This document shows, piece by piece, positions 325 to 35,600 of a stretch of 35,943 nt of DNA. The position numbers and the translations under genes are program-made. The stretch is from Zancudomyces culisetae. Taxonomy: Eukaryota > Kickxellomycota > Harpellomycetes > Harpellales > Legeriomycetaceae. The stretch lies in contig LSSK01000270.1 of the NCBI GenBank assembly GCA_001969505.1, positions 1-35,943 on the forward strand. Direction: 5' to 3'. The notes under the pieces are model-generated. The model saw nothing but the letters and a program-made list of their open reading frames with translations. It made no database searches and was not told where the DNA came from. Each line of letters opens with the position of its first letter. Position 1 is the stretch's first letter.

Positions 325-2631
325 TTACACATTACTTTGTAATCGTGGCTCGCCCTGGTAACGTGGACGGTATGGATTCGGAATTCGTACGTAATATGGC
401 GAATCATACTCCGAATCAGAATATTTTGTGTTTTCATCCATTCTCATTGGTTTATTTGGTCTTTTTTGAGGGTACTTGTCATCATTGGGTCTTTTGGGTC
501 TAATAGGCTCATTGGTATCATAACGCCCATAATAATCATTATATCCATTATATCCATTATATCCATTATATCCATTATGTCCATTGTGTCCATTGTGTCC
601 ATTTTTTTTGTCATCATCATCATCATCATCACCATCATCATAATCATAATCAGGCCTGGATGATCCATTTGGTCTTTGTGGTCTTTGTGGTTTTTGTGGT
701 CTTTGTGGTTTTTGTGGATCATATGAAGGTCGTCCTTCGCTGTCATACGCATCCTTTGTACTCACATAATTTTTAACTGCCGAGGTTGTATAATTGATTG
801 CACTTGTAGTTGTATAATCAACTGTGGTTACAATCACACACTCAGTAACACTAGACGTTGTATATGCAACGATATTTGATGTAACATACTCAGAGGTTCT
901 TGATGTGATATTCTCACTGATAGATGTCGTTTTGTAGAACACAGTACTTGTTTCTGTGTATTTGATAACTGTTGGCTCTGTATAGTAAATGCATGTTGGT
1001 GTCACATAGTACACAACGCTGGAGGTTTTATAATAAACTGTGCTTGGTGATGTGTAGCTTATATCCGATGTTGTTGTGTAATAAACAGTGCTAGATGCTG
1101 TATAGTCGGTAGAAGAGGAGAGTATACAATCTGTGGTGCTAAACGTAGGATGCTCAACGGTTTCAACTTTTGTATAGTAAATAACATTCGATTCGGTATT
1201 ACAAACCGTACTGCTTTCTGTGTTGTATACCACACTTGGTGTTGTGTAATATACTGTGCTTTCTGATGAACCATATACTGTACTTGTTTTGGTGTGACAT
1301 GCTATGCTTGTTGAGGTATAACAAGTCGTGGTTTGTGTTGTATAGTGAATTATACTTGGTGTTGTGTAATATAATGTGGTCGATGTAGTATAGTAACTCG
1401 TACTCTGTGTTGTGTAGTTTATACTGGTTGTTGATGTGTAGAAAATACTGGGTGTTCCATAGTAAATTGCACTGGGGAGTGTGCGGTAAAGCTCAGATGT
1501 TTTTGTGTTATTGATGACAGTATATGTAACATAGTAGGAGACACTAGATGTTGTGCAGTAGCTAGTACTAAGTGCTGTGTCGTAGATGGTGCTAGTTTTT
1601 GTATCGTAGATGGTACTACATTTCGTATCATAAGTAATACTGGTTATTGTGCAATGTGTTACACTTGAATCTGTAACATAGATTGTGGTTGGCTGTGTAT
1701 AGTAGATTGTACTTGTTTCTGTGGTATATACAGTGCTTGACTCTGTATGGTTAATTGTACTATATGTTTTGTAGAATACAGTAGATGTTGATGTGTACTG
1801 TACAATAGATGTTGTTGTGTACACAACAATGCTAGATGTTGTATAATCTGTTGTGCTTGTCAGTATACAGTCTGTGATGCTCGATGTTGTATATTCTACA
1901 ACGCTTGATGTTGTGTACTCTACAGTTTTAGATGTTGTATACTCACTGGTGCTAGATGTTTTATAAAGACTGACGCTGGATGTTGTGTACTCAACTACGC
2001 TTGGATAGGTGTACTCAACAACAGTGGATGTGATATAACTAGTGGTGCTGGATGTTGTGTAATATACGGTGGATGGCGTTGTATAAGATACGACTGATGA
2101 TGTCACATAAGTAATTACGCTCGAAGTTGCATATTCTGTTTTGGTTGGGGTTGTTGTGTTATAAACGGTTTTGCTTGTGTTATATTTCTGAGATTGTGAC
2201 TGTGGCTCATAAGGCGCTCGTTTTATATCAGTGACTGGTTTATATCCCATTTTTTGCTTATCCATTGGGTACTCTACCTTGGGATAACCAGGTTTGTATA
2301 CAGGATATCTTGGATAGGGTTCGTACTCATCGATATCGTAATCAGGAATTGCCATCTCATCCTGAATATTGTTTCTATCCTGAATATTGTTTCTATCCTG
2401 GATGTTGTTTCTATCCTGGATGTTGTTTCTATCCTGGATGTTGTTTCTATCCTGGATGTTGTTTCTATCCTGGATGTTGTTTCTATCCTGGATGTTGTTT
2501 CTATCCTGGATATTCTCTCTATCCTGAATATTGTTTCTATCCATATCTCTTCCAATCACAGCGGCGTTTGCTAGGTTTGCCGCAAACAACAAACAGCCTA
2601 TAACACTGCTAAAACCAGCCTTTGGTTTCAT
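325..2631 (-). CDS. Secreted octapeptide-repeat surface protein
   Basis: An intronless 768-aa protein. Residues 1-23 form a signal peptide (basic start, hydrophobic core, likely cut after ANA). Residues 32-91 hold about ten near-identical RNNIQD hexapeptides. A Tyr/Pro-rich linker follows. Residues ~155-623 consist of about 58 diverged octads with consensus close to TSSVVEYT: Ser/Thr pair, two beta-branched residues, a variable residue, an almost invariant Tyr, then Thr. The tail has QKPQRP repeats, a run of seven Asp, NGH/NGY triplets and a Tyr/Pro/Arg-rich end. There is no transmembrane or GPI-type hydrophobic C-terminus, so release to the wall or matrix is inferred. The octads could make beta-rich or amyloid-like fibres and are rich O-glycosylation substrates. 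I recognise no named family; a spore- or cell-wall adhesin is the best guess. The start is the only Met placed before the signal peptide. Confidence 0.85.
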   Translation of the reverse strand: MKPKAGFSSVIGCLLFAANLANAAVIGRDMDRNNIQDRENIQDRNNIQDRNNIQDRNNIQDRNNIQDRNNIQDRNNIQDRNNIQDRNNIQDEMAIPDYDIDEYEPYPRYPVYKPGYPKVEYPMDKQKMGYKPVTDIKRAPYEPQSQSQKYNTSKTVYNTTTPTKTEYATSSVITYVTSSVVSYTTPSTVYYTTSSTTSYITSTVVEYTYPSVVEYTTSSVSLYKTSSTSEYTTSKTVEYTTSSVVEYTTSSITDCILTSTTDYTTSSIVVYTTTSIVQYTSTSTVFYKTYSTINHTESSTVYTTETSTIYYTQPTTIYVTDSSVTHCTITSITYDTKCSTIYDTKTSTIYDTALSTSYCTTSSVSYYVTYTVINNTKTSELYRTLPSAIYYGTPSIFYTSTTSINYTTQSTSYYTTSTTLYYTTPSIIHYTTQTTTCYTSTSIACHTKTSTVYGSSESTVYYTTPSVVYNTESSTVCNTESNVIYYTKVETVEHPTFSTTDCILSSSTDYTASSTVYYTTTSDISYTSPSTVYYKTSSVVYYVTPTCIYYTEPTVIKYTETSTVFYKTTSISENITSRTSEYVTSNIVAYTTSSVTECVIVTTVDYTTTSAINYTTSAVKNYVSTKDAYDSEGRPSYDPQKPQRPQKPQRPQRPNGSSRPDYDYDDGDDDDDDDKKNGHNGHNGHNGYNGYNGYNGYNDYYGRYDTNEPIRPKRPNDDKYPQKRPNKPMRMDENTKYSDSEYDSPYYVRIPNPYRPRYQGEPRLQSNV
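541..603 (-). repeat. 9-bp tandem repeat coding NGH/NGY
   Basis: About seven copies of a 9-bp unit (ATATCCATT on the plus strand, with G variants). On the minus strand it encodes Asn-Gly-His and Asn-Gly-Tyr triplets in the tail of the surface protein. It lies next to a run of Asp codons. Length polymorphism between strains is likely. Confidence 0.85.
2361..2542 (-). repeat. 18-bp tandem repeat coding RNNIQD
   Basis: About ten head-to-tail copies of an 18-bp unit (CTATCCTGGATGTTGTTT on the plus strand). The central copies are identical and the edge copies carry a few substitutions. The period is a multiple of three, so copy-number changes stay in frame and alter the length of the RNNIQD block just after the signal peptide. 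Confidence 0.95.
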
Positions 2632-5063
2632 ATTTGCTTTTATTATTCTTACTATTGTTTTATTTTTGTATTACTTATTATAATAACTGTTAATGTTGCT
2701 ATATATAATATTTTTAGCTTAGTGGCTTTTACACTAAAACCAAAAAAAAATATTGCGGCTATATATACTAAATTTGCTTCAGCCTTCATACATTAGCATT
2801 AATAAAATATAATACAAAATGTAACATATACATATTTTTTTGTATTTATTGCTTAATGGGTTTTGTAGCGGCACGATGTTGTGTCAAATTCTTTGATATA
2901 TCTAGGGATTGACCGGAAAATGCATGTGCTGTATATTGAAGGAGTTCTGATCCATACACTTGTCGTTTACAGTAAAAGATGAAATACTAAGATATTTGAT
3001 ATACATTTTTAATGACTTCACCAATCTCATTGAGCAATATTTACTCTTGTCTTAAACAATAACTTTGTATGTGTATGTAACCGCTAAATACATACACCTC
3101 TTGTTTTCGATTTTCCAGAGTGAACCTATTCCAGCTTTGTAAAATTAGACAATGGAAAAAATGACTTTCGATTCAATTTTTTTGGCACAGGAAATTGACT
3201 TTTAAAATGTGATGGAGGGAGAAGGAAAGGAATCGGTAAAAATGTTCAAAATTCTTTAAGCCTTCGTAAGTACTAATTAGTTAACTGTCTTTGTTTGAAG
3301 TCTGTTGAGGGAAAGTGTTAGTACGGAGTAGGTTTAGTTTTGTTATGCTCATATTTTTTCGAAGGTTGTACTACGCGTAATACAAGAAATATGCAAATAC
3401 ATAATCAAAATTAGCATATCTTGTACCAGAACCATTTTATGACTGTAAAATCATTATTTAGTACACTCATATTGACTTTTTTTGACAATATTTTCCTGAA
3501 AATCCCTAAAACAGAAAAATTTTATCTTTGCACTATTCAGTATTCAGCTGCGGATGCACAAAGAGGCCCATTTACTTGTAAATATTAGGGTTGAAGAATA
3601 AACTATATCTTTGTTATCTTACAGTTTAGCGTATATTAATAACAGTGTATTGAAAGAAAAATTCAATAATTCAACTCGTAAAATTCACATTTCCATAATA
3701 AAATATAATACGTTCGCATACGTATCTAAATTTTTGCTTAGCTAGTAAATACACTATAAGCAAGTAGACAGGTAATCAAGTAAAAAGTGGAAAAGAGAAG
3801 ATTGCTTTTGCTACGTTATTTTATCACTAAAATCTTTTTTTTTTAAAAAAAGTGACTGTGTTCAAACTAAATAGTTGTTAGAAATAATCATCTGTCCAAA
3901 AATACACATATCTGGATATTCACTTGCTGATAATTCCATATCATTGTGTAAAGGACACGGAGGCTATGAAAAAGCGTAGTGTTTATCTGATAGTGTAATC
4001 AGAAGCTATAACAGAATACGTATATTCACAGTTCATAGGTCTGAGTGGTAAATTCTTTTCTGATTAATATGTATTTGCGTGTATTCACCAATATATAAAA
4101 ACGAATGAAAATTACGTTAAAGTCAGTGCTAGTGGGGAACACTTATCTCGTAAATAGATCAACTATGTTTCCAACGAGTAAAGTTATTCACATTCAAAGA
4201 TGTGATTGGTGGGGTGGGGAGTAGAGGAGCAATACAAAAAAAAATGAATGAAATGGTCTAATTCTGACTGATATGCAACCATCTAACAAGCACGTACTCT
4301 TATGGGCTTTACGCACTTTGAGTATTTCTGTATAAATGTACAGCTTCGTAAAGAGATGGAGACAAAAGATAGTTTGAATAATATTCACTAATCCTCCTGT
4401 CTTTTATCCAATTGGATCTTTTTGAATATACTATTGTTACACAAAAAAAAAAGATATTTGTACTTTACATCTCCCAAAAAACACATGAAACGAGTTTCAC
4501 TGTTAAATTGCACATTTACATGTAACTGCTGTTGACAGGTTCAAACCAATTTATGAACCGCAATAGCTTAAAGCTAATTGTTTATAAATTCAACATAGAT
4601 CATAGTAAATGATCTCGTAGTCATACAACGTATTAACCGTTAATGCGGTTTCTAAATTTCAGAGTGTAATACCTTTTAATTTTATCAGCTTGTTTGGTTT
4701 TCTGTTTCACGTATATTTCTTCCCTCATTAAACTAAAGCGTTGAGAATAAAATCCGGTAACTAGCTCCTATCTTATTGGATAAATTTTTGTTTTAATGAT
4801 GAAAATGGGATATAATATTGATGTAAATTACGTTTAGATCTATTTAGCAATTTAGTACTGGCTAAAACATAATCTCAGCTAAGAATGCTCAAACTATATT
4901 TTGGTTTTGTAAAGTCAAGCTTTTGATACGCAGGATCAGAGAGAGAGAGAAAAAAAGTAATCTATAGTTAAAAACACTCTTCCCCTATAATAAGATGTAA
5001 AGAAAGCCGAGAAAAAAAAATGTTTCTTTAATTATTTATTTTTGTCAGAGCTATAAAGAAAGT
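2632..5063. other. Intergenic region, 2.4 kb, no gene seen
   Basis: Divergent intergenic DNA between the minus-strand surface protein and the plus-strand reader/methyltransferase gene, so it holds both promoters. I find no protein-like frame, tRNA or mobile element. There is a T10A7 dyad at 3835-3851. A pyrimidine tract ending in TTTTTGTCAG just before 5049 resembles a 3' splice site, so the downstream gene may have a 5' UTR intron. Confidence 0.6.
2759..2770 (-). promoter_or_regulatory. Possible TATA element of the surface-protein gene
   Basis: The minus strand reads TAGTATATATAG about 128 bp upstream of the ATG at 2631. A similar stretch lies at 2700-2710. In such AT-rich DNA this is only suggestive. 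Confidence 0.25.
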
Positions 5064-8000
5064 ATGAGCGAAATCACACAGGTGAAAAGAAAAAGGGGTC
5101 GACCTAAGCGCATTCTGGAGCCACAGCGAGTAGAAGTAGAGCAAAGTATAAAAAGGAAAAGGGGTAGACCAAAGAAAACAAATCTGCATGAAGGGGCGGC
5201 GGGGCCTGAAAACGTCGAAGGGAACGAAAATGTGGATATAGATACCACAAAAGTATGTAATGACGCGGTATTTATTAAAAAGCACAACAATGGTAACCCA
5301 CAAATGGAGTATATCCAGACAAAATGCGAGGAGTGTAACAAAACAACAGGTACTACTCAAAGGTATGGTGATACAAATGGTTCTTTTGATATCTGTAGTG
5401 ACTGCATGGCGTCGGCCATCAATACACTGCCATTATGGAAGACCGACCTAATACGAAAGGGGTCAAGCGAATCGCTACCAGTTTATAATCCGAGCGTGTC
5501 CAGCTCCATTGAACACACTCGTGAAGAGAATAGCGTAAATGCTAATATAAAGATACTTGAGCATGTAGCTGAGGACGGGTTACAAGAGCTAAAGAAACAA
5601 CATGATGTTGTAGCTATGGGGTGTGGGTTTTTGAATGAAAAAAAAACTACGATGGGTGTTGAAGATAGCGTTAACGAGACTACAAACGCTAAAAAGAAGA
5701 AAAACTGGCACAAAGAGCTCGAAATGATAACAACAGGAGCGTTTATAACACGAGCGGCGTCACGATTCCTAACAAACAAAGATGGATTCACGGAAATCAA
5801 TGAAACTTACAGCAAATATAAGCCAGGAGCAAGATTGTTGGTGCTTTCTGTGGATAAAAAGTGGTATAAGGGCACAGCGGTAAAACTGGAAAAAGGAAAA
5901 ATAAAGGTTCATTATTTGGGATGGAGTAGTCAGTATGATGAGTGGGTAGATAGTGATTCAAAAAGAATAAAAATCGATGAGCAAGCAGGTGCGGGTGAAG
6001 AAGAAATGGAGGGTGAAGGGGGTGAAGGGGAAATGGAGGGGGAAGGGGAAGGGGAAGGGGGTGGTGAATACAAAGAAGAGGTGTATAAGGAGGAGGAAGT
6101 GTTCATGAACCAAACTGAAAGTAATAATAGCATTAGCAGCCAGATAGGTAAAAGAAATGCTTCCTCAAGCTCAGCCAAAAACGCACAAAAATCGGCTATA
6201 AAAAGAAAAATTAGACCCAGCAGCGGTAGCAATGTCCCCAATACACAAAAACCACTTGAAAGCAGCAACAAAAACACAGAACTTAGCTGGAAAACCTTAA
6301 AAACAGAGAGGCAAAGTGAGTTTTACGGGGAATCTAGCAAAGTTGGTGATATAAGCATTGGGCAGCTGATCGAAGTATTAGGTTTGGATCGAAAATACTA
6401 TTTCTGCAGAGCATTATCATTTTGGAAAGGTAAAATGTTGGTTAAGTATGAGGAATGGGAGATGGAGTACAACGAATGGATCAATGTCGAAAGTCGAAGA
6501 ATACGAACAATACCAAGAAATAGTGAATTATGGAATAAGCTAAAACTTGATGAAGAAACTGAAAGAGAAAGAGTAAAAACTGCATTAAAACATTTGAGAG
6601 AGTATAATGAATATCTAAACCAAAAAAGACAGGAAAGTCTTGCTGAGAAGAGAAGAAAAGCCGATTTCCAAAATAGAAATAAAAAAAGCAGTGCAAAAGT
6701 AGCCAAAAAGGTTCAGTTTTATACTGATTCTGATGAGACTGAGAGTAACGAACAATCGACCCATTCAGCCACTGATGATAGTGACTGTGTAACCTATCCA
6801 CATGCAGCACGAAAGAAGCGCAAGGTAATAAATGATGTGGTAACCCCCGGTCGAAAATTTAGAGTATTCAATGGAAATTTTGATGAGATAAGCAAGAATG
6901 AAAAGCCGCTTTCAAAGGCAGTACTCGAGGATGAGTATCATGTAGTTCCCTCTCAGCTCAAGCTATCAAGCTACGCACTACATTTCTATATTGGGTTATA
7001 CGTGGCAGTACGGGGTGGTAAGTCCAAGGGACAAGACGAGTGTTGGTGGCTGGGGAAAGTAGAAAATAAGCTGAAATATCGGGTTTTCATAAAATATGAA
7101 GGTTGGCCTGACGAATATAACGAGTGGATTGATGTAAACTCGCCAAGATTGAGAATAAACATTAAAATGGCAACAGAAATGGCTATTTCCATTCGAATGA
7201 ACGACGAGAATCACAAAAAAAGAGGCATGCTTGGACTCAGTAACAAAAATGTAAAAAATATTGGAAACAGCAGTAATCAGAGGCAGCACCAACAACCTCT
7301 CTCCATGAGGCTTGCCGTAAAAGAAATTATAGCTGATGCTTTTGTAAACCAAAAATATAAGGCGATCTATCCGGAAGATGTTGGCGCAATACAACTGGCA
7401 CATAAAGAGATGGACATGAAGGATTACAAATTCTTTTTCCGAATTGGAGACAAAATCAGGGCCAGAATAAACTGCAAGGGGTACATGACCGACACTACAG
7501 AAAACTTGTGGAAAGAAGGGCATATATCTACAATTTCTCAAGGCAGAATACTAATAAATTTCGGAGAGCTAAAAGAGCTTGAGAATTCAGGTCATATCGG
7601 CAAGAGCAAGAATAGTGGAAAGGATGGATCCGAAAAGTGCTTTAAGCAGTGGTTCGATTTTAACTCGAAGCAATTACGTATATTGGCGGAGACTGTAAAT
7701 AAAGACGGAAGGTTACTTGGAATTTCTGATATGGCATCAAAAAAGTCTAAAAGCAAAAAAAAAACGCATAATCACAATTCCAAATCCGCATCGGGCAGTA
7801 GAGCTGAAAGAAACAACTCGTTGCTATCAACTATTGAGGTGCTTGAAAAGAGTTTGGTGTTTATTGATACAGATAACAAGGTGGATAGCCTTGAGGAGTC
7901 TAAATCGTGGATGGTCTATTGTAATGTTTGTAACGTTGTTATAAATTGTTTTAGATATTATTGCAGCGTCTGTGAGGTGCCAACCGATAACTATGACTAT

Positions 8001-11000
8001 TACAGCTTTGATCTCTGTTTTGTGTAAGTATTTATCAGCAAGGAAGTGCTTTTTATTTTGTACTGGTTGATAACAGGACAAGAATATGTGTAAACAAATT
8101 TATAAACTAAAATATTAACATTTTAAACTATTTACGTGGATAGGTGCTACACAAATGCTTTTCCAAAAGATCATCCTCATCCACCAACAGAGTTCATTAG
8201 AGCACCTATAACAACTGTTCAGCGTATAGTTGAGCAAGTAAACAATGAAACAAAAAATATTCTAGCATCAACAACGAACATTTCGGAATTTAATCATGAG
8301 CCACAACGTCCAGAGGCACGCAAATCGAGCAACAAGGTTTATAACCAGGCAGTCAAGGTTACACAAGCTATATTTTCGATATCTGTTACTGAATACGAAA
8401 AGGATGTATTTGATTATAACGCATTCAGCTTTGGCCACACAATGTTGAACGATGGGTTAAAAAATATTGATCAAAATAATGGAGATGTGTCTATCTCGGA
8501 GGAGATTAACAGCGACGGAAATGATGGTGGGTTCGAAAATGGTGATGAATCTGTCCGATATACCAACCAACAGCTAATACGATCAACCTACCATTCTCAG
8601 CGTGTTTGTGCTCTTTGTAGTGAGAAAGAAAACGAAATGATCAATTATTTTGAATACAATGACAAGAAGGTTGGCCAATTCATTAGTAAATTTCCATTTG
8701 TTATCTATTCTCAGCCAAAGCCTAAACCAAATACATTAACTACAAACTCAGAAGGCACAAAGAAAACAAACGATACAAAGCAACCAAACGATACAAAGCA
8801 ACCAAACGACATGAACGACACAAATGGCACAGATGGCACAAATGGCACAAATGATACAAATGACACAAATGACACAAACGAAATTGATCGCGCTAATGAG
8901 CCAGACCCTCTTGTTCAGAAACTACAAAGAAGATTTTGGGTTCATGATATTTGCGCCAGGTATTCTCCAGAGGTACTTGTGGATTCGGTGAGTGGAGGTA
9001 TTAAAAATACGGCTACCGGTCTGAATGCCGTTTGGTATAATGTTACTAAAGCTGTTATCAGAGGTAGACTAATAAAATGCTCCAGGTGTAAAAACAATGG
9101 AGCTACGATAGGTTGTTTTGAACCTAAGTGTCACCGTAGCTATCACGTCATGTGTTCGGGAATGCCGCTAGAAAAGTTTGAAAAGGGGTTTGTGTTTTAT
9201 TGTCCAGTTCACTATTTCAACTACAGTTTGAAACAGGAATTACCAAACGACGACCAAGCCAGGGATATGCTGGCACGGAAAATCAACTACAAAATAAATA
9301 AACTGAGGTGTAATGTATGTAATACAAGTTTAAAAGAGGCAATTTCTTGGTGGACTTGTAGTGAGTGTATCAGCACAACATATACCAGCACGACTTCCGG
9401 TGACTACTCAGAAAGAATAACTATTGGCGGGGGTATTGGTGGAGAGGGGTATAGCGTGTGTATGGATTGCTATAATTATGACTTTCCAGAGGCACACCCG
9501 CACAAAAGGTCTTGCTTTAAGCCCTCATATGCTAAAGAAGCAATAACCTGGGACCAAAATGAACTCTATAATCAATTCACTGATAGTGAGGGCGAGTTTA
9601 TAGATGAGGACAAGGATTACACTAATGAAAAGTATGGTGTCGAAAGAAATGGCGTTTCTAGCTCCTTTAGTAAAGGCACAGGAGTGGGCGTCAATAATCC
9701 TGTTTGTTGTTCGTATTGCTGGACTACTGAATGCAAAAATTGGAGAACGGGTTATGGTCAACTTATTATGTGTGAATCTTGCTACAACAGCGCAAGTTCT
9801 TGGATGTTTGATAGTGAGGGTACTGGTCGAACCGACCACATTAGCTTAGAGGCGTTAAATCCATTCGGTACCTCTGACCCCCAATTGCTATTTTCAGAGA
9901 AAGGTGAAAACAACAAAAAAAATACAGGAATCGGTAAGGATAACAATAGTGGTGGTAGTAGTAGCGGCGATGGCAAAGGTAATGTTGATACTGGTATCAA
10001 TGAGAATGCAGGCGAACCACTGAGCTTAAAAAATACCACAGGATCGGATGGTTTTGAGAGTGCAGATTTAAGTTTTTTGGATAAGGCAGCAGGTGAATAT
10101 ATTGGGGCTGTTGAAGATTATCTACACAATCCCTACTTTACACGTGATTCGTGTTTTCCAAAGCCTACATCAATAAATGGCCAGCTTATAACACCAGAAC
10201 TGGATTATCTTAATCCAAGACCAACTTATTTGAGATCTGCAGCACCTTTAGGGTTGCTAAGTTCGTATGGACCCACAAAGGCAATGGTATGGTCGCTGCC
10301 CGTCACGAGCACGTACTTCAATATTCCAGGAAGGGCTCCCAGATGGGCATCGCATTCGGGTACTGACTATCACGGAACATGGCTTCCTCAGACTGTCCGA
10401 AGGGCGCTGTTAAGATATACTCGACCTGGAAATTTGGTTTTATCCAACTTTCTGGGTCGTGGAACTGATGCTATCGAAAGCTTTTTGCTGCGAAGAAAGT
10501 GTATTGGTATTGATATAAACCCTGTAGCTGTAGCTCTTTCACAAAGAAATTGTTCTTTTGCTGTTCCAGTTGGGCTGGCTCAAAAACTCACGGCAAAGCT
10601 GAGACCCATAATCCTTAATGGTGATTCAAGGAGTCTAAAGTTTATCACAGGAGGCGACCATACTGTCAAATATACCGATGGTACTAACACATCAGAGCCC
10701 GCAGGCGATGGTGTAGATAAAGCTAATGGCACGACAAGTATCAAGGCTAGTGATGGCATTTTTGATCATGTTTTGAGCCACCCACCTTACAAAGACTGTG
10801 TTTCATACTCCTCACACATTAATGGGGATCTTAGTAGGTTCCCAAATCCTGATGAATTCCAGTCACAAATGACCGCGGTGGCTAATGAAACTTGGCGGCT
10901 TCTAAAACCAGGCAGGTATTGTACATTGGGGATAGGTGATAACCGGTCTCAATGCTTTTACATTCCTGTTGGTTTTCAGCTAGCAAGAACGTATCTTGAC

Positions 11001-12549
11001 CGTGGATTTGAAATCGACGAACTCATTGTGAAAAGGCAGAGATACTGCCAGGCATTTGGGTTGGGCACTCACTTGTGTGTTCAGTTTGATTTCCTAGTGT
11101 TTACGCACGAGTACATAATAACTCTTCGTAAAGTTTCCCGCACTTTGACACATCGACTATCATCCCCAGCTACTTTGGACAGAGATACATCTGGACTTGT
11201 GGAAAAAGCTCGGATTGCCTCCAGCTGCAACGAATTGTGTAACGCATTTGGTTTTGATTGCAATGTCCAAACGCTACCTGTACAACCCTCACCGATAGAT
11301 AGGAAATCTGTGGTAATGGGAACTGTTTGGACTTTTCAGCAAACTGCGAGCACTCCATATAACACAGAATTTTCCAAGCTGATAGTATCAAGAATGGTGC
11401 AGAGGTTTGGTAGAGATTATTCGTACTGGGAGCTATTAGAACTTGAGCCAACCCTGCTATGTGGTACACGGGGTGGAAAAGTTGACAAGAAAAACTCAGA
11501 AAATTGTCGCAAAGACTCCCCCACAGATCTGGTAAACAAATTGGACTCACAATCTTTAGATTACACCAGTAAAAAACCTAACTCAAAGCTTAACAATAGT
11601 TACGAGGAAAAAAGGCTAAAAAATATTCAAAACAACAAACAAACGTTGCTTTCACTTGGCTTGGTATCTGAGCTTACACAAGAGGCTAATGATGATTTCA
11701 CCTACTTGAAGTCACTAGGGATTTCGTCAAACGCATCTACAAAGCACACCTCTAATACCAGGTTAGATATTTCTATGGATAAAAACTCTGTGGGTTCGGG
11801 CGTAAAATACAACGATTTTGAAGATGCGAGTACTATATTATTGGAACAGAAAGACAAGGTATCACTTCCCTCCCTTGCTATAATTCCACATATCCCGTTT
11901 GAGTATCTCAACGAGCAATCACTTGATTCACCGGCTCTTAGAGATACCGTGTTTAATATTCCTAGCAATAAAGCGGCCGATACCAACCAGCATCCCATTG
12001 CATCCTCAACAATATCGAATGGTAGTGGAAAAGCTGACGACTTGTTTGCTGATAAAATCTCAAACTATCGGCGACTTTTGCTTTCCCTGGCAAGCTACTA
12101 CGAAGAACGACTCAGCCTGGGTGGCCTGCTAATAATTGGTGTTCAAGATGTTAGAGATCCTACAACAAATCTACTCTGGCCTCTAGGAATGCTTGTAAAT
12201 GAAGATATTACTTTATCATCAACTCGTTTAAAACTCAAAGAGCTCATAGTCACCGTCCCTGATGGTTACGAAAATTCTCGAGACAGATCATATTACAAGA
12301 ATACTCCGTCTTCATCATCACTTTGCGTCCTGAATTGCAAAATAGATGAAATGCCGCATGTACCAATTGTTCATGTAAGTTACGAATAACCCTTATTTTT
12401 TTTTAAAAAAAAATTATATTATTTTACAAAAGGCCGATTTAAACGAACATACATATACTCGCAAATCAAATTTTTATTTCCGTTTTTCTAACCTACATAT
12501 TTTTGGTAATATATAGGCTTACTATCTGGTTTACATGAAGCTATCATAG
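5064..12549 (+). CDS. Chromatin-reader and DNA N6A/N4C methyltransferase fusion
   Basis: Exons 5064-8023, 8144-12374 and 12517-12549 give about 2407 aa. Both introns start GTAAGT and end TAG. The first is inside the Val codon between paired zinc cysteines (LCFVC); the second restores a methylase-like end (HAYYLVYMK). Order: AT-hooks (KRKRGRPK) at 8-15 and 30-37; CX2C-X19-CX2C finger 88-114; chromo-barrel/Tudor-knot domains ~251-305, ~428-483 and ~640-700, each with a W-x3-Y-x-EW core; a divergent fourth ~790-875; ZZ-like finger ~953-999; extended PHD ~1142-1343 with an Asn/Asp/Thr-rich insert; second ZZ-like finger ~1376-1445; GATA-spaced finger 1509-1533; methyltransferase module ~1710-1983 with NFLGRGTD (1755), IGIDINP (1774) and HPPY (1866-1869); second, degenerate module to the end with HIPF (2236-2239). 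The inferred role is nuclear DNA methylation of adenine N6 or cytosine N4 guided by histone marks. Residue modified and activity are unproven. Confidence 0.85.
8024..8143 (+). other. Intron 1 of the reader/methyltransferase gene
   Basis: A 120-nt intron with donor GTAAGT and acceptor GGATAG. Without splicing the upstream frame stops at 8025-8027 and the downstream frame has no ATG here. Splicing completes a Val codon and joins C985 to C988 of one zinc finger, with a downstream HPH. That continuity is the main evidence that this is one gene and not two. Confidence 0.9.
12375..12516 (+). other. Intron 2 of the reader/methyltransferase gene
   Basis: A 142-nt phase-0 intron with donor GTAAGT, a CTAAC branch-like motif at 12488-12492 and acceptor ATATAG. 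Retention would end the protein five residues after HV. Splicing adds an 11-codon exon giving HAYYLVYMKLS, which parallels HEYIITLRK at the end of the first module. The intron contains a T9A9 dyad at 12396-12413. Confidence 0.75.
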
Positions 12550-16462: not shown

Positions 16463-17097
16463 NNNNNNNNNNNNNNNNNNNNNNNNNNNNNNNNNNNNNN
16501 NNNNNNNNNNNNNNNNNNNNNNNNNNNNNNNNNNNNNNNNNNNNNNNNNNNNNNNNNNNNNNNNNNNNNNNNNNNNNNNNNNNNNNNNNNNNNNNNNNNN
16601 NNNNNNNNNNNNNNNNNNNNNNNNNNNNNNNNNNNNNNNNNNNNNNNNNNNNNNNNNNNNNNNNNNNNNNNNNNNNNNNNNNNNNNNNNNNNNNNNNNNN
16701 NNNNNNNNNNNNNNNNNNNNNNNNNNNNNNNNNNNNNNNNNNNNNNNNNNNNNNNNNNNNNNNNNNNNNNNNNNNNNNNNNNNNNNNNNNNNNNNNNNNN
16801 NNNNNNNNNNNNNNNNNNNNNNNNNNNNNNNNNNNNNNNNNNNNNNNNNNNNNNNNNNNNNNNNNNNNNNNNNNNNNNNNNNNNNNNNNNNNNNNNNNNN
16901 NNNNNNNNNNNNNNNNNNNNNNNNNNNNNNNNNNNNNNNNNNNNNNNNNNNNNNNNNNNNNNNNNNNNNNNNNNNNNNNNNNNNNNNNNNNNNNNNNNNN
17001 NNNNNNNNNNNNNNNNNNNNNNNNNNNNNNNNNNNNNNNNNNNNNNNNNNNNNNNNNNNNNNNNNNNNNNNNNNNNNNNNNNNNNNNNNNNNNNNNN
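16463..17097. other. Assembly gap (635 N)
   Basis: An unsequenced stretch. It removes the C-terminal part of the minus-strand TPR-like gene. The stated size may be an estimate. Confidence 1.
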
Positions 17098-29830: not shown

Positions 29831-32611
29831 TCAAGAATGCCTAAACAATGCAGAGGAAATCCGGTTATCGGTAGTAAACGTGTTTGTTTCTAAAGAAGAT
29901 AATGGGGTAGCTGTAGTAGGAGCAGACACTGGAGTCAAGGCAGTTGAATCTATAATTGAAGTAGGAGGGGGAGGTGAAGAAGATGAAGAGGAGACAGAAG
30001 TTGGAATTGAAGAAGTAGTAGTGGCTGGTAGAGGGATGTTCCGTAAGAAATAGGGTAGAATCAATGATTTGACAAAGAAACTAGGTAGAGGAGAAACAAA
30101 ATAAGAGTCGAGATTATCGTTTAAAAAGACACCAAGTTTGTTGGTTAGTGAGCAGGTGGCAGCCAAAGCGCGAGCTCGAGATAAAGGAATCCAAGTTCCG
30201 TTTAATAGACTGCCAGATTTTCTCCACTTGAAACGACCAACCTGTAGAGATAAAACTATGTTGCGTTCGTGGTCATTCAAAATGCCGCCAAGTTGGAGCA
30301 AAGTTGTGGCATTTATATAGTCGTTTTCTACTAGGCGCATTAGTGAATAGGTTTGATTGTGATTGTTGGTGTGGTTTTTACTGGAATATGGTTTGTTTAA
30401 AACAGTTAGATAGACAGGAACAGACTCAATTATGGTTAGGACAGTATATGGATAAATCGTTGAAGGTTTTAGCGGATGAACTAAAGGATAGTTTTTTAAA
30501 TAATCTTTGAACAATATTGATATATCTTGAGATTGAAAATTTGTGTTTTTTGGATTTGACCTAATCAGTTTCGCTGTAATAGCTGTATCATCCTTGCGTG
30601 TATTACCAGGATCACTGCTACTGCCTTTGCTACTTTCGCTGGGTTTCACCGCAGTCAAGGTATGAACAACATTATTGACGCATTCTGGTCGTTTATTTCC
30701 ACTATCAGCAATTTCAGGTTTATTAGTGGGAAGATTTTTATTGGTCGATTGGGAAAATCTAGGTAAATCCGCAGCTGACTCATCATTAGTGGTATTGATC
30801 TGAGTATGGGTGTGGGTGTGGGTGTGGGTGTGGGTGTGGGTGTGGGCATGAGTTAGCAAAGTGGCTGCAGCTTGGTGAGCCTTGGTTAAAAACTCTACTC
30901 CAACTATACATTTTTCTTTATTGTCAAGGTTAAAGGTGACATTGCTATTTTCAGCATTACTAGTATTACAAATTGAATCCATTTCCATGACATCTTGTGA
31001 ATTGACGTCTATTTTTGCTTGAGTCTGTTCATTCCCATCTCCAATCTTTTCTTTTTCATTTTCCTTTTCTTCTATCCCCTCTTCCTCTTCTTCAGTAGTT
31101 GTACAGCCACTGTCAGTATAGGTGTTTTCAGCTGATAGTAAATTATCCAGCTCAGAAATTGACATTATTTCGTTCCCATCTAGTTCATTACATATATCTG
31201 CTGCGCTAGCTAGTGGTGGGAGGTCTGATGTTTCTAACGTGCAAGTTGAGGCCGTGGAGGAGAGTGGTGATTGTGGAATAGAAAATGCTAGTTTTATTGG
31301 TTCTTCTAGATTCATTATCAAATCGTTTCCTGACTCGAACGTGCATTCACAACCGTCTTCAGCATTTGGGTTTGGGTTTGGGTTTGGGTTCGGGTTTGAA
31401 TTTGGGTTTGAACTTGCGTTTGAATTTGCGTTTGTAGCTGCATTCAAATTCATACCGCATTCTACTTTAGTTTGATTTTCAGCTATACTTTCACTTGCGC
31501 TTTTATCTATTCTATCTTCCATATTTTCAAGTAAACCTTCGCTATAAATATCAGCATCAACATCCGCATCAACATCAGCATCAGTATTAACATCAGCATC
31601 AGCATCAGTATCGTTATCGTTATCGTTATCGTTATCTGTCTCAGTATCAATACCATTGATAATATTGCTTTCACTCTCGTCTTTATCTGTTTGCTCATCG
31701 TGGAATAATATCATTTCATTGTCACTGCTTGTACACTCCCGCCTGGCGTTTTTAATCTTCCCAAACGTATTAGTAGTATCTACAAGCTCTACAAGTTCTA
31801 CAGTATCTACAGTATCTACAGTATCTATAGTATCTATAGTATTTACAACGTCCATAGAGTATACAAAATTTCCGCCTCGAATCTTACCACCACTAGGAAT
31901 ATTCGATGTTCGTCGTGGTGTTCTATCAATACTCTCTTCATTTTCCGACTCTTCAGATTGTATAAAATCAAGTTTTCTCTTTTTTTCTTGCCGGTTTTCC
32001 GCTCCCTCATCCATTATTATATAATAGAGTATTTTTCTTGGGTTCCCATCCTTATAATACCGACCTAAAATCTTACTTTCATCTCCGCTTCTTTTGAAAT
32101 GCTGTGATATTCGTGATGATACTGTAGCAAATGGTGTAGCTCCTCCCAATAATGTAAGTTTGTTTGCTATGATTGTATTTGCCAGTTCCTTCGGTGAACT
32201 CGGCCTGTTTCCATTCAAATCAAGTGCTGCTAGTATTGCCATAAACACCTTGTCTCTAATATCTTCGCGACATAATCGCTTGAGTAGTTTGTTTCCGATA
32301 CTACAACTTTTGTATTTTGTCATTATTTGTTTCTTGTTTTCTTTGGATCCTATAACCACCTCTTGTACACTTTTCTTTTCCTCTTCATTTTCATTTTCAT
32401 TGCTCTTTTCGTTACCATTTTCAACTCCCATGCAGCTATCTTTTCTTTCAACATCTTTTACCTTTTCCTTTTCCTTTTCCTTTTCCTTCTCCTTTTCCTT
32501 TCTTTCTTTCAAGTTACTCTTCGCCATCATATTCTTCTCAAATATCGATTCGTTTCGATCTATTTCTTTTCCCTTATATACTATTTTCCTTTTCCCTGTC
32601 CTACTACTCAT
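29831..32611 (-). CDS. Gds1-type winged helix and KilA-N/APSES transcription factor
   Basis: An intronless 926-aa protein starting at the ATG at 32611 (MSSRTGKRKIVYKGK); an in-frame GTG three codons upstream is not needed. The order is: basic start, a Lys/Glu repeat (~37-50), then a winged-helix domain (~117-202) with NRPSSPKELANTIIANKLT and GGATPFATVSSRISQHFKR, characteristic of yeast Gds1-like proteins. Next is a long acidic, repeat-rich linker (Asp/Ala, Asn/Pro and His/Thr runs, poly-Glu). The C-terminal KilA-N/APSES-like DNA-binding domain spans ~722-842 with SLMRLVENDYINATTLLQLG and a GTWIPLSRARALA core. It ends in a Ser/Thr/Pro tail. It is probably a nuclear sequence-specific regulator with two DNA-binding domains; targets are unknown. 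Low-complexity runs are encoded by short tandem repeats and probably vary in length. Confidence 0.85.
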   Translation of the reverse strand: MSSRTGKRKIVYKGKEIDRNESIFEKNMMAKSNLKERKEKEKEKEKEKEKVKDVERKDSCMGVENGNEKSNENENEEEKKSVQEVVIGSKENKKQIMTKYKSCSIGNKLLKRLCREDIRDKVFMAILAALDLNGNRPSSPKELANTIIANKLTLLGGATPFATVSSRISQHFKRSGDESKILGRYYKDGNPRKILYYIIMDEGAENRQEKKRKLDFIQSEESENEESIDRTPRRTSNIPSGGKIRGGNFVYSMDVVNTIDTIDTVDTVDTVELVELVDTTNTFGKIKNARRECTSSDNEMILFHDEQTDKDESESNIINGIDTETDNDNDNDNDTDADADVNTDADVDADVDADIYSEGLLENMEDRIDKSASESIAENQTKVECGMNLNAATNANSNASSNPNSNPNPNPNPNPNAEDGCECTFESGNDLIMNLEEPIKLAFSIPQSPLSSTASTCTLETSDLPPLASAADICNELDGNEIMSISELDNLLSAENTYTDSGCTTTEEEEEGIEEKENEKEKIGDGNEQTQAKIDVNSQDVMEMDSICNTSNAENSNVTFNLDNKEKCIVGVEFLTKAHQAAATLLTHAHTHTHTHTHTHTHTQINTTNDESAADLPRFSQSTNKNLPTNKPEIADSGNKRPECVNNVVHTLTAVKPSESSKGSSSDPGNTRKDDTAITAKLIRSNPKNTNFQSQDISILFKDYLKNYPLVHPLKPSTIYPYTVLTIIESVPVYLTVLNKPYSSKNHTNNHNQTYSLMRLVENDYINATTLLQLGGILNDHERNIVLSLQVGRFKWRKSGSLLNGTWIPLSRARALAATCSLTNKLGVFLNDNLDSYFVSPLPSFFVKSLILPYFLRNIPLPATTTSSIPTSVSSSSSSPPPPTSIIDSTALTPVSAPTTATPLSSLETNTFTTDNRISSALFRHS
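30807..30846 (-). repeat. GGGTGT repeat coding (His-Thr)n
   Basis: At least seven GGG runs separated by TGT on the plus strand, the template strand of the transcription-factor gene. It encodes alternating His and Thr. The pattern fits a G-quadruplex-forming motif. Confidence 0.9.
31367..31393 (-). repeat. GGGTTT repeat coding (Asn-Pro)n
   Basis: Five GGG runs separated by TTT or TTC on the plus strand, followed by diverged copies to about 31435. It encodes Asn-Pro and then Asn-Ala/Ser repeats in the linker of the transcription factor. It resembles telomere repeats by chance of codon choice but is coding. Confidence 0.9.
32459..32510 (-). repeat. CTTTTC-type repeat coding (Lys-Glu)n
   Basis: A pyrimidine-rich run of imperfect CCTTTT units on the plus strand. 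On the minus strand it reads as alternating Lys and Glu near the N-terminus of the transcription factor. It probably forms a single charged helix. Confidence 0.85.
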
Positions 32612-35600
32612 TTTTCTCACCTTTATCTTCCATTTACCCTAAAACTCGTCTAACTCGTACCTTTATAGTATGATGTTTATCTATACCTATTGTATTTACT
32701 TTTTTTCTTCACTTGTAAAACTCAAAAAAGCTACAATAGTACTCTTTCTTTTTCTTTTCTTGTTATATAAGACTTGTGTTTGATAGTTTATTCGACCCTT
32801 TCCTTTATATTAGCGTCCTAATATTCGTCTAGCTTGATGCCGGTTCGATTATATTCTGCCTGTGGTATTATACTTTATTGAATATACTATCAAAAATATC
32901 GCTAAAGTTGTCCCTTCTCTTTTTCGCTTTAAAAAAACGCTTTAAAATTGTTTTATCCCACCCCTCTTGTACTTAATATTTCTTTACTCTTTAATATTTA
33001 CTCTAGTTTGACCAAAGTCCCAAGGTTAAATAAAAGATATAAAAAAAAGGAGGGGGAGAAAAAAAAGCGACGTGATAAACTAAACCCTGTTGTTCTAATA
33101 GTGCTGTGCAGTTATTTTGCTAATTTTTAGCCTGGTACTTTCACCGTTAATATGGTACAATATGCCTTCGATTTGAAATTTAAAAGGTTTCTATGATCTC
33201 ACAAATAGCTTCAATATACAAAACCAATATGTTCCCTTTATAATATCTATTTTATAAACATGATATATTAAACAAAATAAAAAACAAAGGCCAAGCGAAA
33301 TATTATAAATATCTTCTACATTTATTTTTTCTAAAATTTATTTTATTCTCGTGCTTTTTTTGGTTGCTATTAATTGATTTTACTAGGAAATAATTTGCGC
33401 TTTTTAGGATTTTCAAAAAATAAAATATATTAAATAACCCTATTCTGAGAAATTTACTAAAAAGTAAATAGTATTAATTAGCTATTTTGGAATACTCTTA
33501 TTATTATTTTACATTATTACTTTTTTTGCTCCTATAATCCTGCGAAAAAAAATTTTTTTTTTGTATTAGTTCTTATGGCTCTTACAAATAAAACCATTGT
33601 AATTTCCCTAGTTTTCAAACTGCACTCCATAAAACACACTAAAATATTTTTTTAATATTATACAAGGTGCTTCAATGGAATGAGTGCAACAATGGAAAAC
33701 GCAAGCACAAGTGGGGGGGAGGAAGCAGGGAAAATATTGGGTAAACAAGGAACAGGAATGAGTACATTATGCTCCCTCACATCCCCCCCTTACACCAAGC
33801 TCTGTGTCTTTTGGACCCTACCTTCCAGTTGGTGTTTCTGGATAAACATCTCAGACCTTTTTTTTTTTCATCATCTGGCTCGATTTTGCCCACTATTACA
33901 TTTTGAATTGTGGTTAAAAATTCAACAGGAAAAAAATTATGAAAAAACACTTTTCATGCCCTGTTACCTAAAATATGTACCATTTTTTATCACTAATGGC
34001 TGAAAACAATTCTTTATTATTAATTCAAATGTAAGACCATTAACCTTTTCCACATGTATTTTGACGACCATTTATAATTTTCTGCTTATCCTCACTTCTT
34101 GCAAAAACATGCTCTTCAGTATCCCTTAATGTTTTTATTTTCAATGTACTGATTTGATAGTTTAAAGAAGTAACCAATCACAAATTAATAAAATTATCTT
34201 GAAGTGAACACCAATGCTTTACAAAAAATAAGTGCTTGAGTTATTGCTCACTTTATATTTTCTTGACATTTCTTAGTATTCATCAGGAACTTGCGGATTC
34301 ATAAACCACTTGGAATTCAGATTCAGATTAGCGTTTAGTTGCTGCTATTGGTTTGTTTATATTTCTTTTTTCACTTTTGTTTGTAAAAGTTTAACGCTAA
34401 AACGTAAAATTAAAAAAATATTATGCAAATTTTAATTGCAAAAAAATAATGCATTCGCAACGTAATCTTGCCTATTTACTTGTAAATGGTTTTTGTTAAA
34501 TGATCTCCATCAAAATGCTAGTTAAAGTTTGGAACAAATCGACTATTGTTTGGATATAGATTTTCAATTTCCAAATCGAAGAGCTCTTATTGGAAAAATT
34601 AATTTACATAAACAAAAAAACTAATTTTTTTTTAAAAAAAGAACTTTTAGTATTGAATACATATTTAACAGACTATAAATTAAGAGCTAATAATGTTTAC
34701 AAGACTAAGGGAAGAGATAAATGATGGGAAAGGAATGAGAAAAAAATAGAAAAATTCCACAGTTCTTCGTGTCTTTGAAAAGGAGAATGCAAAATAAATG
34801 CCGTGTTGGTTAGTTGTAAGATATTATTGTGCTTTTCAACCAAGCAGTACCAGGTCAATATTTTAGTATGATATATTAAAGTTCAAAACCAGGAAAGAAA
34901 TAAAAAATTGAAAATTGAAAATACGAATTTCCGCTTCCTCCCCTCCACCTTATCAAACAATTTCAGTTCAGCATACAATCCAAGCTAAGCCCTAACATAA
35001 ACTTTCCATTTAGTTGTTACTTGAAAGTGATTGCCAAAACGAATTTGTAATAAAGTTGAGCATCGTGAAATAACAAATCACAAATCGTATACAACATATT
35101 TTAGCTAATGTTTTTTTTGCTCCAATTAAAGTATTAAAGAGTGGCGGAAATAAATATGGTGGTAGAAAACGGAGGATGAAGGATGGAGATAAGAGTAAAA
35201 TTGATTAATACTAAAGAATTCAAGAAAACTCTGTTCAGCTCAATAATGGAAAACCAGTTGTGGTGTTGATTTCCCCAAATACCTAGCGGCTTCACTGTAT
35301 TTGCAAAAATGTTCATATTATTTAATCATCTTAATTTTAATTAAGCGCATAAAACGCCACTTTGTTAGTAGCAACCAATCATTCTCGTGGATTAGAAAAT
35401 AAATCTTTAAAGCATTTTTATAAAACCCATATAATTGCAGGAAAGAACTAGAAAGTATGAGTTAAATTGATTTATTAGACATGCTAAAATAAATTTATAT
35501 ATATCTTTCTTTGATAAACAAACTTAAAATTTACATTATTTATAATCAAATGCTAAAAAAAAAGTTAAACTCCAAAATAGCATCAATATAAATATATTTT

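Follow-up and report, generated by a model that had tools for sequence, protein, structure and literature searches.

A spliced gene of Zancudomyces culisetae joins histone-reader modules to a restriction-modification type methyltransferase, a candidate chromatin-targeted DNA methylation enzyme of early-diverging fungi

Gene structure and reader modules

We analyzed a 35,943-nucleotide stretch of the Zancudomyces culisetae genome (assembly GCA_001969505.1, contig LSSK01000270.1; hereafter the window), in which one forward-strand gene at 5064-12549 encodes, across three exons, a protein of 2,407 amino acids whose joined frame contains no internal stops. Its N-terminus carries a series of predicted chromatin-reader and DNA-binding modules and, judging from profile comparisons and a gene tree, its C-terminal stretch of ~700 residues has a common ancestor with a two-domain prokaryotic methyltransferase of restriction-modification type. 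An original prediction, made from the sequence of the window without database searches, had proposed a single-chain, spliced fusion of chromatin reader and prokaryote-type methyltransferase, and we find that both exon halves do belong to one protein: an alignment of 101 orthologs backs both introns. Conservation counts out of 101 refer to the homologs of 1,500 amino acids or more among the 120 listed, Pfam counts out of 22 refer to diverse orthologs picked from the homolog list (matches at E 0.1), and fold assignments throughout come from sequence profiles. The features of the gene are:

5064-8023, +, exon 1 (ATG at 5064, donor GTAAGT at 8024; residues 1-986 and part of 987)
5085-5111, +, AT-hook motif 1 (KRKRGRPKR; sequence motif, Pfam AT_hook under its cut-off)
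5151-5177, +, AT-hook motif 2 (KRKRGRPKK; sequence motif, Pfam AT_hook under its cut-off)
5814-5966, +, Royal-type barrel 1 (SAWADEE and MORC2-chromo matches at residues 262-305)
6351-6506, +, Royal-type barrel 2 (placed by pattern; the W472 column is Trp in 86/101 orthologs)
6981-7154, +, Royal-type barrel 3 (strongest Pfam MBT stretch at residues 660-696; ortholog alignment poorly filled)
7428-7676, +, Royal-type barrel 4 (placed by pattern; W816 kept in 77/101 orthologs)
7920-8183, +, ZZ-like zinc finger 1, interrupted by intron 1 (C2-C2-C2-HxH; ligands fixed or almost fixed across 22 orthologs)
8024-8143, +, intron 1 (GTAAGT...AG; junction inside a zinc-finger Cys/His block kept in orthologs)
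8144-12374, +, exon 2 (open reading frame and joined frame)
8607-9212, +, extended PHD (PF13771 E 4.7e-9, PF13832 E 1.9e-7; KMT2D and PHF6 structures)
9309-9512, +, ZZ-like zinc finger 2 (C2-C2-C2-HxH invariant in 22 orthologs; Pfam ZZ in 3/22)
9708-9782, +, GATA-spaced finger CX2CX17CX2C (ligands invariant; Pfam GATA in 6/22; GATA-3 E 0.003)
10251-11138, +, catalytic methyltransferase domain (PF01555, 44.9 bits; PADLOC Type II methyltransferase PDLC03376, E 2.8e-38)
10440-10469, +, motif I LSNFLGRGTD, the S-adenosylmethionine (SAM) site, with Ser in place of the prokaryotic Asp
10776-10790, +, motif IV SHPPY (invariant in 101/101 orthologs)
11304-12374, + and continuing into exon 3, degenerate second methyltransferase half (start set by eye; profile match from 11631)
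12375-12516, +, intron 2 (GTAAGT...AG)
12517-12549, +, exon 3 (final 10 residues and stop, matching the conserved ortholog end PIVHAxYLVF)

A scan of the source genome (23.1 Mb in 859 contigs) found a near-identical copy of the locus on contig C817 (13.3 kb at 99.4%), most simply the other haplotype, and no further PF01555 gene or paralog at E 0.001. The coding sequences of the two copies differ by three replacement and no silent changes, with no gaps, which is too few to gauge selection. The spliceosomal-type introns, the fungal orthologs and the copy on C817 together rule out bacterial contamination.

Searching the joined protein against about 5.8 billion proteins, a check that the original prediction had called for, returned 158 homologs (44 with the methyltransferase domain alone as query), and the statements that follow rest on the best 120 of the 158. 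The same fusion recurs across early-diverging fungi, with 101 of these 120 reaching at least 1,500 amino acids; every one with an organism name comes from an early-diverging fungus, some others are unnamed metagenome proteins, and most are labelled hypothetical protein. Judged by their genera, the named homologs represent, among others, Kickxellales, Harpellales, Dimargaritales, Zoopagales, Entomophthorales, Mucorales, Umbelopsidales, Mortierellales, Glomeromycotina and Spizellomycetales. No Dikarya or non-fungal eukaryotes appear among the named homologs in the best 120 of 158, and we grade absence from Dikarya as no more than likely, because 120 of the 158 matches are listed and the search needs shared words. 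The distribution suggests that fusion to the multi-reader N-terminus probably took place early in fungal evolution.

Scanning the two large exons of the window protein with Pfam, we identified matches to MBT (E 3.1e-14 over three stretches, with location reported for the best stretch alone), SAWADEE (E 9.9e-7, three stretches) and zf-HC5HC2H (E 4.7e-9). Among the 22 orthologs, MBT was matched in 20, MORC2-chromo in 17, Agenet in 15 and both extended-PHD models in all 22, and a profile built from these orthologs matched solved structures of the L3MBTL3 MBT repeats (1e-17), the PHF20L1 Tudor domain (2e-9), the KMT2D extended PHD (1.4e-13) and GATA-3 (0.003), with EAF3/MRG15 and PHF6 also among the structures matched. 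By sequence, then, the protein carries Royal-family readers and an extended PHD, the latter as originally proposed. The repeats described earlier as chromo-barrels are here called Royal-type (MBT/Tudor/chromo-barrel) and probably number four, which corrects the original prediction on this point. In the sequence alignment, Trp/Tyr positions that might form an aromatic cage for methyl-lysine are mostly retained in barrels 1, 2 and 4 (in barrel 1, W267 is kept in 80/101 and W294 in 84/101 orthologs) and poorly in barrel 3.

The remaining modules of the N-terminus are visible mainly as short motifs. Two AT-hooks can be read in the sequence, as predicted, and RGRP is present in 46/101 orthologs, so that AT-hooks are common but not universal; the Pfam AT_hook model itself reached E 0.72, below its cut-off. 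The two ZZ-like fingers and the GATA-spaced finger are likewise borne out, and these calls rest mainly on conserved Cys/His spacing, because Pfam support is sparse in the orthologs and neither the ZZ nor the GATA model is listed for the window protein itself.

Methyltransferase domain and its prokaryotic relatives

The catalytic domain matches PF01555 (N6_N4_Mtase) at 44.9 bits against a curated cut-off of 26.7 (E 1.7e-11), and all 22 orthologs examined match the model at E 0.1. Its best match overall is a PADLOC model of Type II restriction-modification methyltransferases (PDLC03376, E 2.8e-38, 130 bits over two stretches), followed by a second Type II model (PDLC03351, E 2.9e-28). The original prediction had left open a core of PF01555 or PF02384 type; the first is confirmed and the second, which would imply a MetB-like enzyme, does not show up among the matches of the window protein up to E 10 (HMMER filters on). 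A best match to tRNA or rRNA methylases, which would have spoken against that prediction, was not found, and a Trm11/RMKL-type identity is rejected, as the Type II DNA methyltransferase models match and PF01170 is not listed (HMMER filters drop most matches above E 0.1). We also reject an MT-A70 identity, as PF05063 is not listed and motif IV reads HPPY rather than DPPW; the proposal of a writer different from MT-A70 therefore stands.

Within this domain, motif I (residue 1753) precedes motif IV (residue 1865). HPPYK, the Asp of motif II and GDNR are invariant in 101/101 orthologs, and HSGTDYHGTW is conserved in 90-101 of the 101 at each position. In PF01555, motif IV is expected as (D/N/S)PP(Y/F/W), a pattern that the family departs from, with HPPY in 101/101 orthologs and in 119/119 prokaryotic relatives listed besides the protein P0158. 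Because His stands where Asp or Ser usually hints at N6-methyladenine (6mA) or N4-methylcytosine (4mC), the target base is not readable from motif IV.

P0158 was the one clear prokaryotic relative returned by the domain-only search (30% identity), and it opens onto a large family: 6,934 of 8,000 scored candidates passed E 0.001. Names among the best 120 listed include DNA methyltransferase and DNA modification methylase, but also TRM11 family and RsmD. At 35 of 79 loci, a same-strand gene from one of three recurrent families lies at +1 or +2 of the prokaryotic HPPY gene (80 loci minus one with no recognisable methyltransferase frame; the loci are not independent, many coming from Ignavibacteria and Bacteroidetes bins). 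Two of the partner families, a and c, are relatives (98.9%), one member of family b carries an EVE domain, and one member of family c weakly matches SAP; we consider the three families candidate unannotated restriction enzymes. Loci with such a partner include L049, L051, L075 and L106. Beside the fungal gene, reading the neighbouring open frames by eye, we recognised no restriction-enzyme partner. A scan of viral contigs gave at least 35 loci, most of which are short and lie around motif I, while two, L012 and L014, are longer, and 26 phage records contained a match, the best 15 of which reach at most about 31% identity. One Fusobacterium record close to a short form carries no annotation.

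Using the eukaryotic-type alignment as query in four phylum genome sets, we recovered closer prokaryotic relatives: in 16/227 genomes from the phylum to which a Thorarchaeota genome belongs (Asgard below; E 1e-30), in 24/398 from that of a Peptococcaceae bin, in 2/395 from that of a Bacteroidetes bin, and in 6/301 from that of Chloroploca (Chloroflexi; E 1e-45). Open frames of at least 486 amino acids occurred in six Asgard-set genomes, one Bacteroidetes-set genome, two Chloroploca-set genomes and none of the Peptococcaceae set, with the others spanning 160-408 amino acids. Eight two-domain enzymes were extracted (L127, L131, L132, L134, L135, L175, L177 and L178; a copy in genome G091, whose locus also holds a short form, was left out), and their C half lacks both PPY and the FxGxG pattern in all eight. 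The start of L131 and L132 resembles a C2H2 zinc finger by eye.

These two-domain enzymes make the C-terminus of the fungal protein interpretable. In profile comparisons, fungal residues about 2150-2406 match the C half of the prokaryotic enzymes (98.8%, E 6e-17), and that C half in turn matches, more weakly, the catalytic half of the same enzymes (95%, E 3.5e-8). Because the C half matches both, the fungal C-terminus is, as far as profiles can tell, a degenerate, catalytically empty second methyltransferase half common to the two-domain prokaryotic enzymes. Compared with the prokaryotic catalytic half, the fungal C half scores 84.5%, whereas direct comparison with the fungal catalytic half is weak (probabilities of 6.8% and 11.6%), so that the duplication is recognisable only via the prokaryotic two-domain forms. 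This link to the degenerate half of rare Asgard, Chloroflexota and Bacteroidota enzymes is new.

The gene tree agrees with this kinship. It was built from 81 rows, 15 of them fungal, with 254 of 658 columns kept; five of the eight two-domain sequences were cut so as to extend into the C half, in columns too rare to be kept. Fungal and metagenome proteins form one clade (100/100). Within it, Smittium megazygosporum (Harpellales) supplies the sister of the window protein (100/94), so that this one gene points to a host that is probably a kickxellomycotine fungus. A split separates the fungal and metagenome proteins, together with the two-domain prokaryotic enzymes, from all other prokaryotic rows (99/98). 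Support for the two-domain group alone is 80/82. Asgard, Chloroflexota and Bacteroidota forms are intermixed, which leaves the donor lineage unsettled.

Eight neighbour proteins of the two-domain genes were scanned, of which three, beside L127, L134 and L135, weakly match a NucS C-terminal nuclease model (E 0.002-0.01, all under the model's cut-off), one beside L127 is a D12 adenine methyltransferase, and four gave nothing informative. At L127 (38-916 and 2501-3661), in a Thorarchaeota genome, the D12 enzyme, the two-domain HPPY methyltransferase and the NucS-C-like gene are clustered.

Proposed function and alternatives

We think it probable that, in early-diverging fungi, this protein serves as a chromatin-targeted DNA amino-methyltransferase, acting on adenine N6 or cytosine N4, with DNA inferred as substrate from its restriction-modification kinship and gene context. 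In the mechanism we propose, the predicted methyl-lysine-binding barrels, extended PHD and ZZ-like fingers would dock on modified nucleosomes, the AT-hooks and GATA-like finger would hold DNA, the empty half would help to seat it, and the HPPY domain would move a methyl group from SAM to the target base. This large, conserved protein may thus be a so far unnoticed enzyme that places marks on fungal DNA at sites bearing particular histone marks. If active, it would add a conserved DNA writer to those covered in recent fungal 6mA work, tie histone marks directly to DNA methylation in these fungi, and illustrate how eukaryotes captured and rebuilt a restriction-modification type enzyme.

Several observations weigh against this reading. 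The motif IV position held here by His is Asp, Asn or Ser in DNA amino-methyltransferases that have been characterised. The acid of motif I, Asp in 174/174 prokaryotic relatives, is replaced in the eukaryotic-type proteins (Ser in 135/136 and Ala in the remaining one, after dropping 9 of 145 HPPY-bearing proteins in which the pattern did not find motif I). The first 164 proteins of this count include P0158, which was placed with the prokaryotes, and 18 without HPPY; 17 of these 18 do not cover the site, and the other, P0151, breaks there. A close metagenome relative, P0127, weakly matches general and RNA-type methyltransferase models (PF01170 at E 0.056, under its cut-off, and PF02384 at E 0.14), and none of the prokaryotic partner genes has a curated nuclease annotation. 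In Mucor, deletion of metB lowered 6mA by 70-75%, with asymmetric 6mA wholly lost according to the paper's discussion, and deletion of mta1 removed symmetric 6mA sites (PMC11258239). This leaves little space in Mucor for a third enzyme writing 6mA in quantity, and any 6mA made there by the HPPY enzyme would be a minority.

The strongest alternative, which we nevertheless consider unlikely, is that the protein is a double pseudo-enzyme, which no longer transfers methyl groups and instead offers a chromatin reader complex a surface for binding DNA or SAM. Loss of methyl transfer despite conserved motifs is possible, and the replaced motif I acid, the clearly empty C-terminal half and the long branch leading to the eukaryotic-type clade (1.27) speak for it. 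A dead enzyme, however, need not retain HPPY, the motif II Asp, GDNR and HSGTDYHGTW at the levels given above. The loss of Asp in motif I is moreover coupled to a gain: its last residue, Thr or Ser in prokaryotes, is Asp in 136/136 eukaryotic-type proteins. Conservation this strict looks like rewiring, and suggests a working SAM site.

Less likely again is that RNA or protein, rather than DNA, is methylated. The names 'TRM11 family SAM-dependent methyltransferase' and 'RsmD' are attached to some of the prokaryotic relatives, and there are weak L11/TIGR01177 matches in addition to the PF01170 match of P0127. For the window protein, however, PF01555 is the only methyltransferase family listed, and it is over its cut-off; Type II models match at 130 bits, the domain is fused to DNA- and histone-reader domains, and the Pfam scan lists no THUMP domain. 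Finally, the two large exons form separate open frames, but the idea that the fusion is a gene-model or assembly artefact joining separate reader and methyltransferase genes is largely refuted already, and very improbable, by the same single-chain architecture in many independent genomes and by the C817 copy, which keeps the same coding frame.

Returning to a chromatin-targeted DNA methyltransferase, we advance a more specific version of it tentatively: early-diverging fungi would have a third, so far unrecognised DNA-writing system, one polypeptide that reads histones and writes on DNA. Its SAM site would be rewired, an empty twin domain built in, and its ancestor a two-domain methyltransferase like those of Asgard archaea and a few bacteria; it would lay down sparse 6mA or 4mC at specific chromatin.

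Known systems resemble this protein in part. The original prediction drew an analogy with the bdelloid 4mC enzyme N4CMT, which holds in that, of the known systems, N4CMT comes nearest in logic: both combine a PF01555 restriction-modification type amino-methyltransferase with a Royal-family histone reader in a eukaryote. They are nonetheless different enzymes: in the accessible text of PMC8885841, N4CMT is permuted (catalytic part before AdoMet part), has SPPY and one HP1-type chromodomain and is reported from bdelloids, whereas the window protein has motif I before motif IV, HPPY, MBT/Tudor, PHD and ZZ-like readers plus an extra empty half, and belongs to a family found across the main early-diverging fungal groups. 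Lacking both the permuted order and SPPY, it cannot be assigned to N4CMT. The fungal MetB, likewise a prokaryote-derived DNA methyltransferase of early-diverging fungi, is described in the portion of PMC11258239 available as PF02384 with a Type IIL-like target domain, in contrast to PF01555 with chromatin readers. The MTA1c/AMT1 complex shares the pairing of a catalytic with a catalytically empty methyltransferase unit, but through MT-A70 proteins with DPPW on separate chains (PMC11258239 and PMC12695648, as far as their available text goes), whereas here both halves lie on one chain of restriction-modification kinship; the two-domain form is thus a natural one-chain parallel to MTA1/MTA9. The prokaryotic two-domain Type II-like enzymes share the catalytic HPPY domain and the same degenerate C-terminal half, but have no eukaryotic readers, keep the motif I Asp (8/8), and have NucS-C-like neighbours beside three.

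Descriptions of this family were absent from the text available of PMC8885841, PMC12695648, PMC11258239, PMC13297926 and PMC12344493, and from a literature search of titles and abstract starts whose coverage was partial, so that an earlier mention is possible. Lax et al. 2024 tested metA (PF05175), metB (PF02384), metC and mta1 (PF05063) in Mucor, and PF01555 is absent from the main text of that paper (PMC11258239). Neither 4mC nor N6_N4 occurs in the accessible part of a 2026 review of fungal DNA methylation, and another paper, in the part available, searched three non-fungal protists for PF01555 with no match.

Other methylase genes and features of the window

Elsewhere in the genome we found additional methylase genes, whose family assignments were made by eye. 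On other contigs there are MT-A70 matches that we take to be one gene with DPPW and one weaker match in which the motif is lost. Two PF02384 matches presumably correspond to HemK and Trm11, which they resemble, rather than to MetB, and two C5 methylase genes on C494 and C348 (L045 and L046) appear DNMT2-like; three stops, which may mark introns, interrupt the match on C494. With this set of genes, the usual machinery for 6mA at ApT may exist beside the HPPY protein.

The window itself holds further features around the gene. At 325-2670 (-) lies a protein of low complexity that contains (NNIQDR)n as well as long repeats rich in Thr/Ser/Tyr and that may be secreted or part of the wall. Downstream of the gene, 16463-17097 is a run of N, where the aligned C817 copy has only about 62 bases between flanking matches. 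At 29831-32638 (-), a long protein combines low-complexity tracts with a region that we take to resemble a fungal KilA-N/APSES-type domain.

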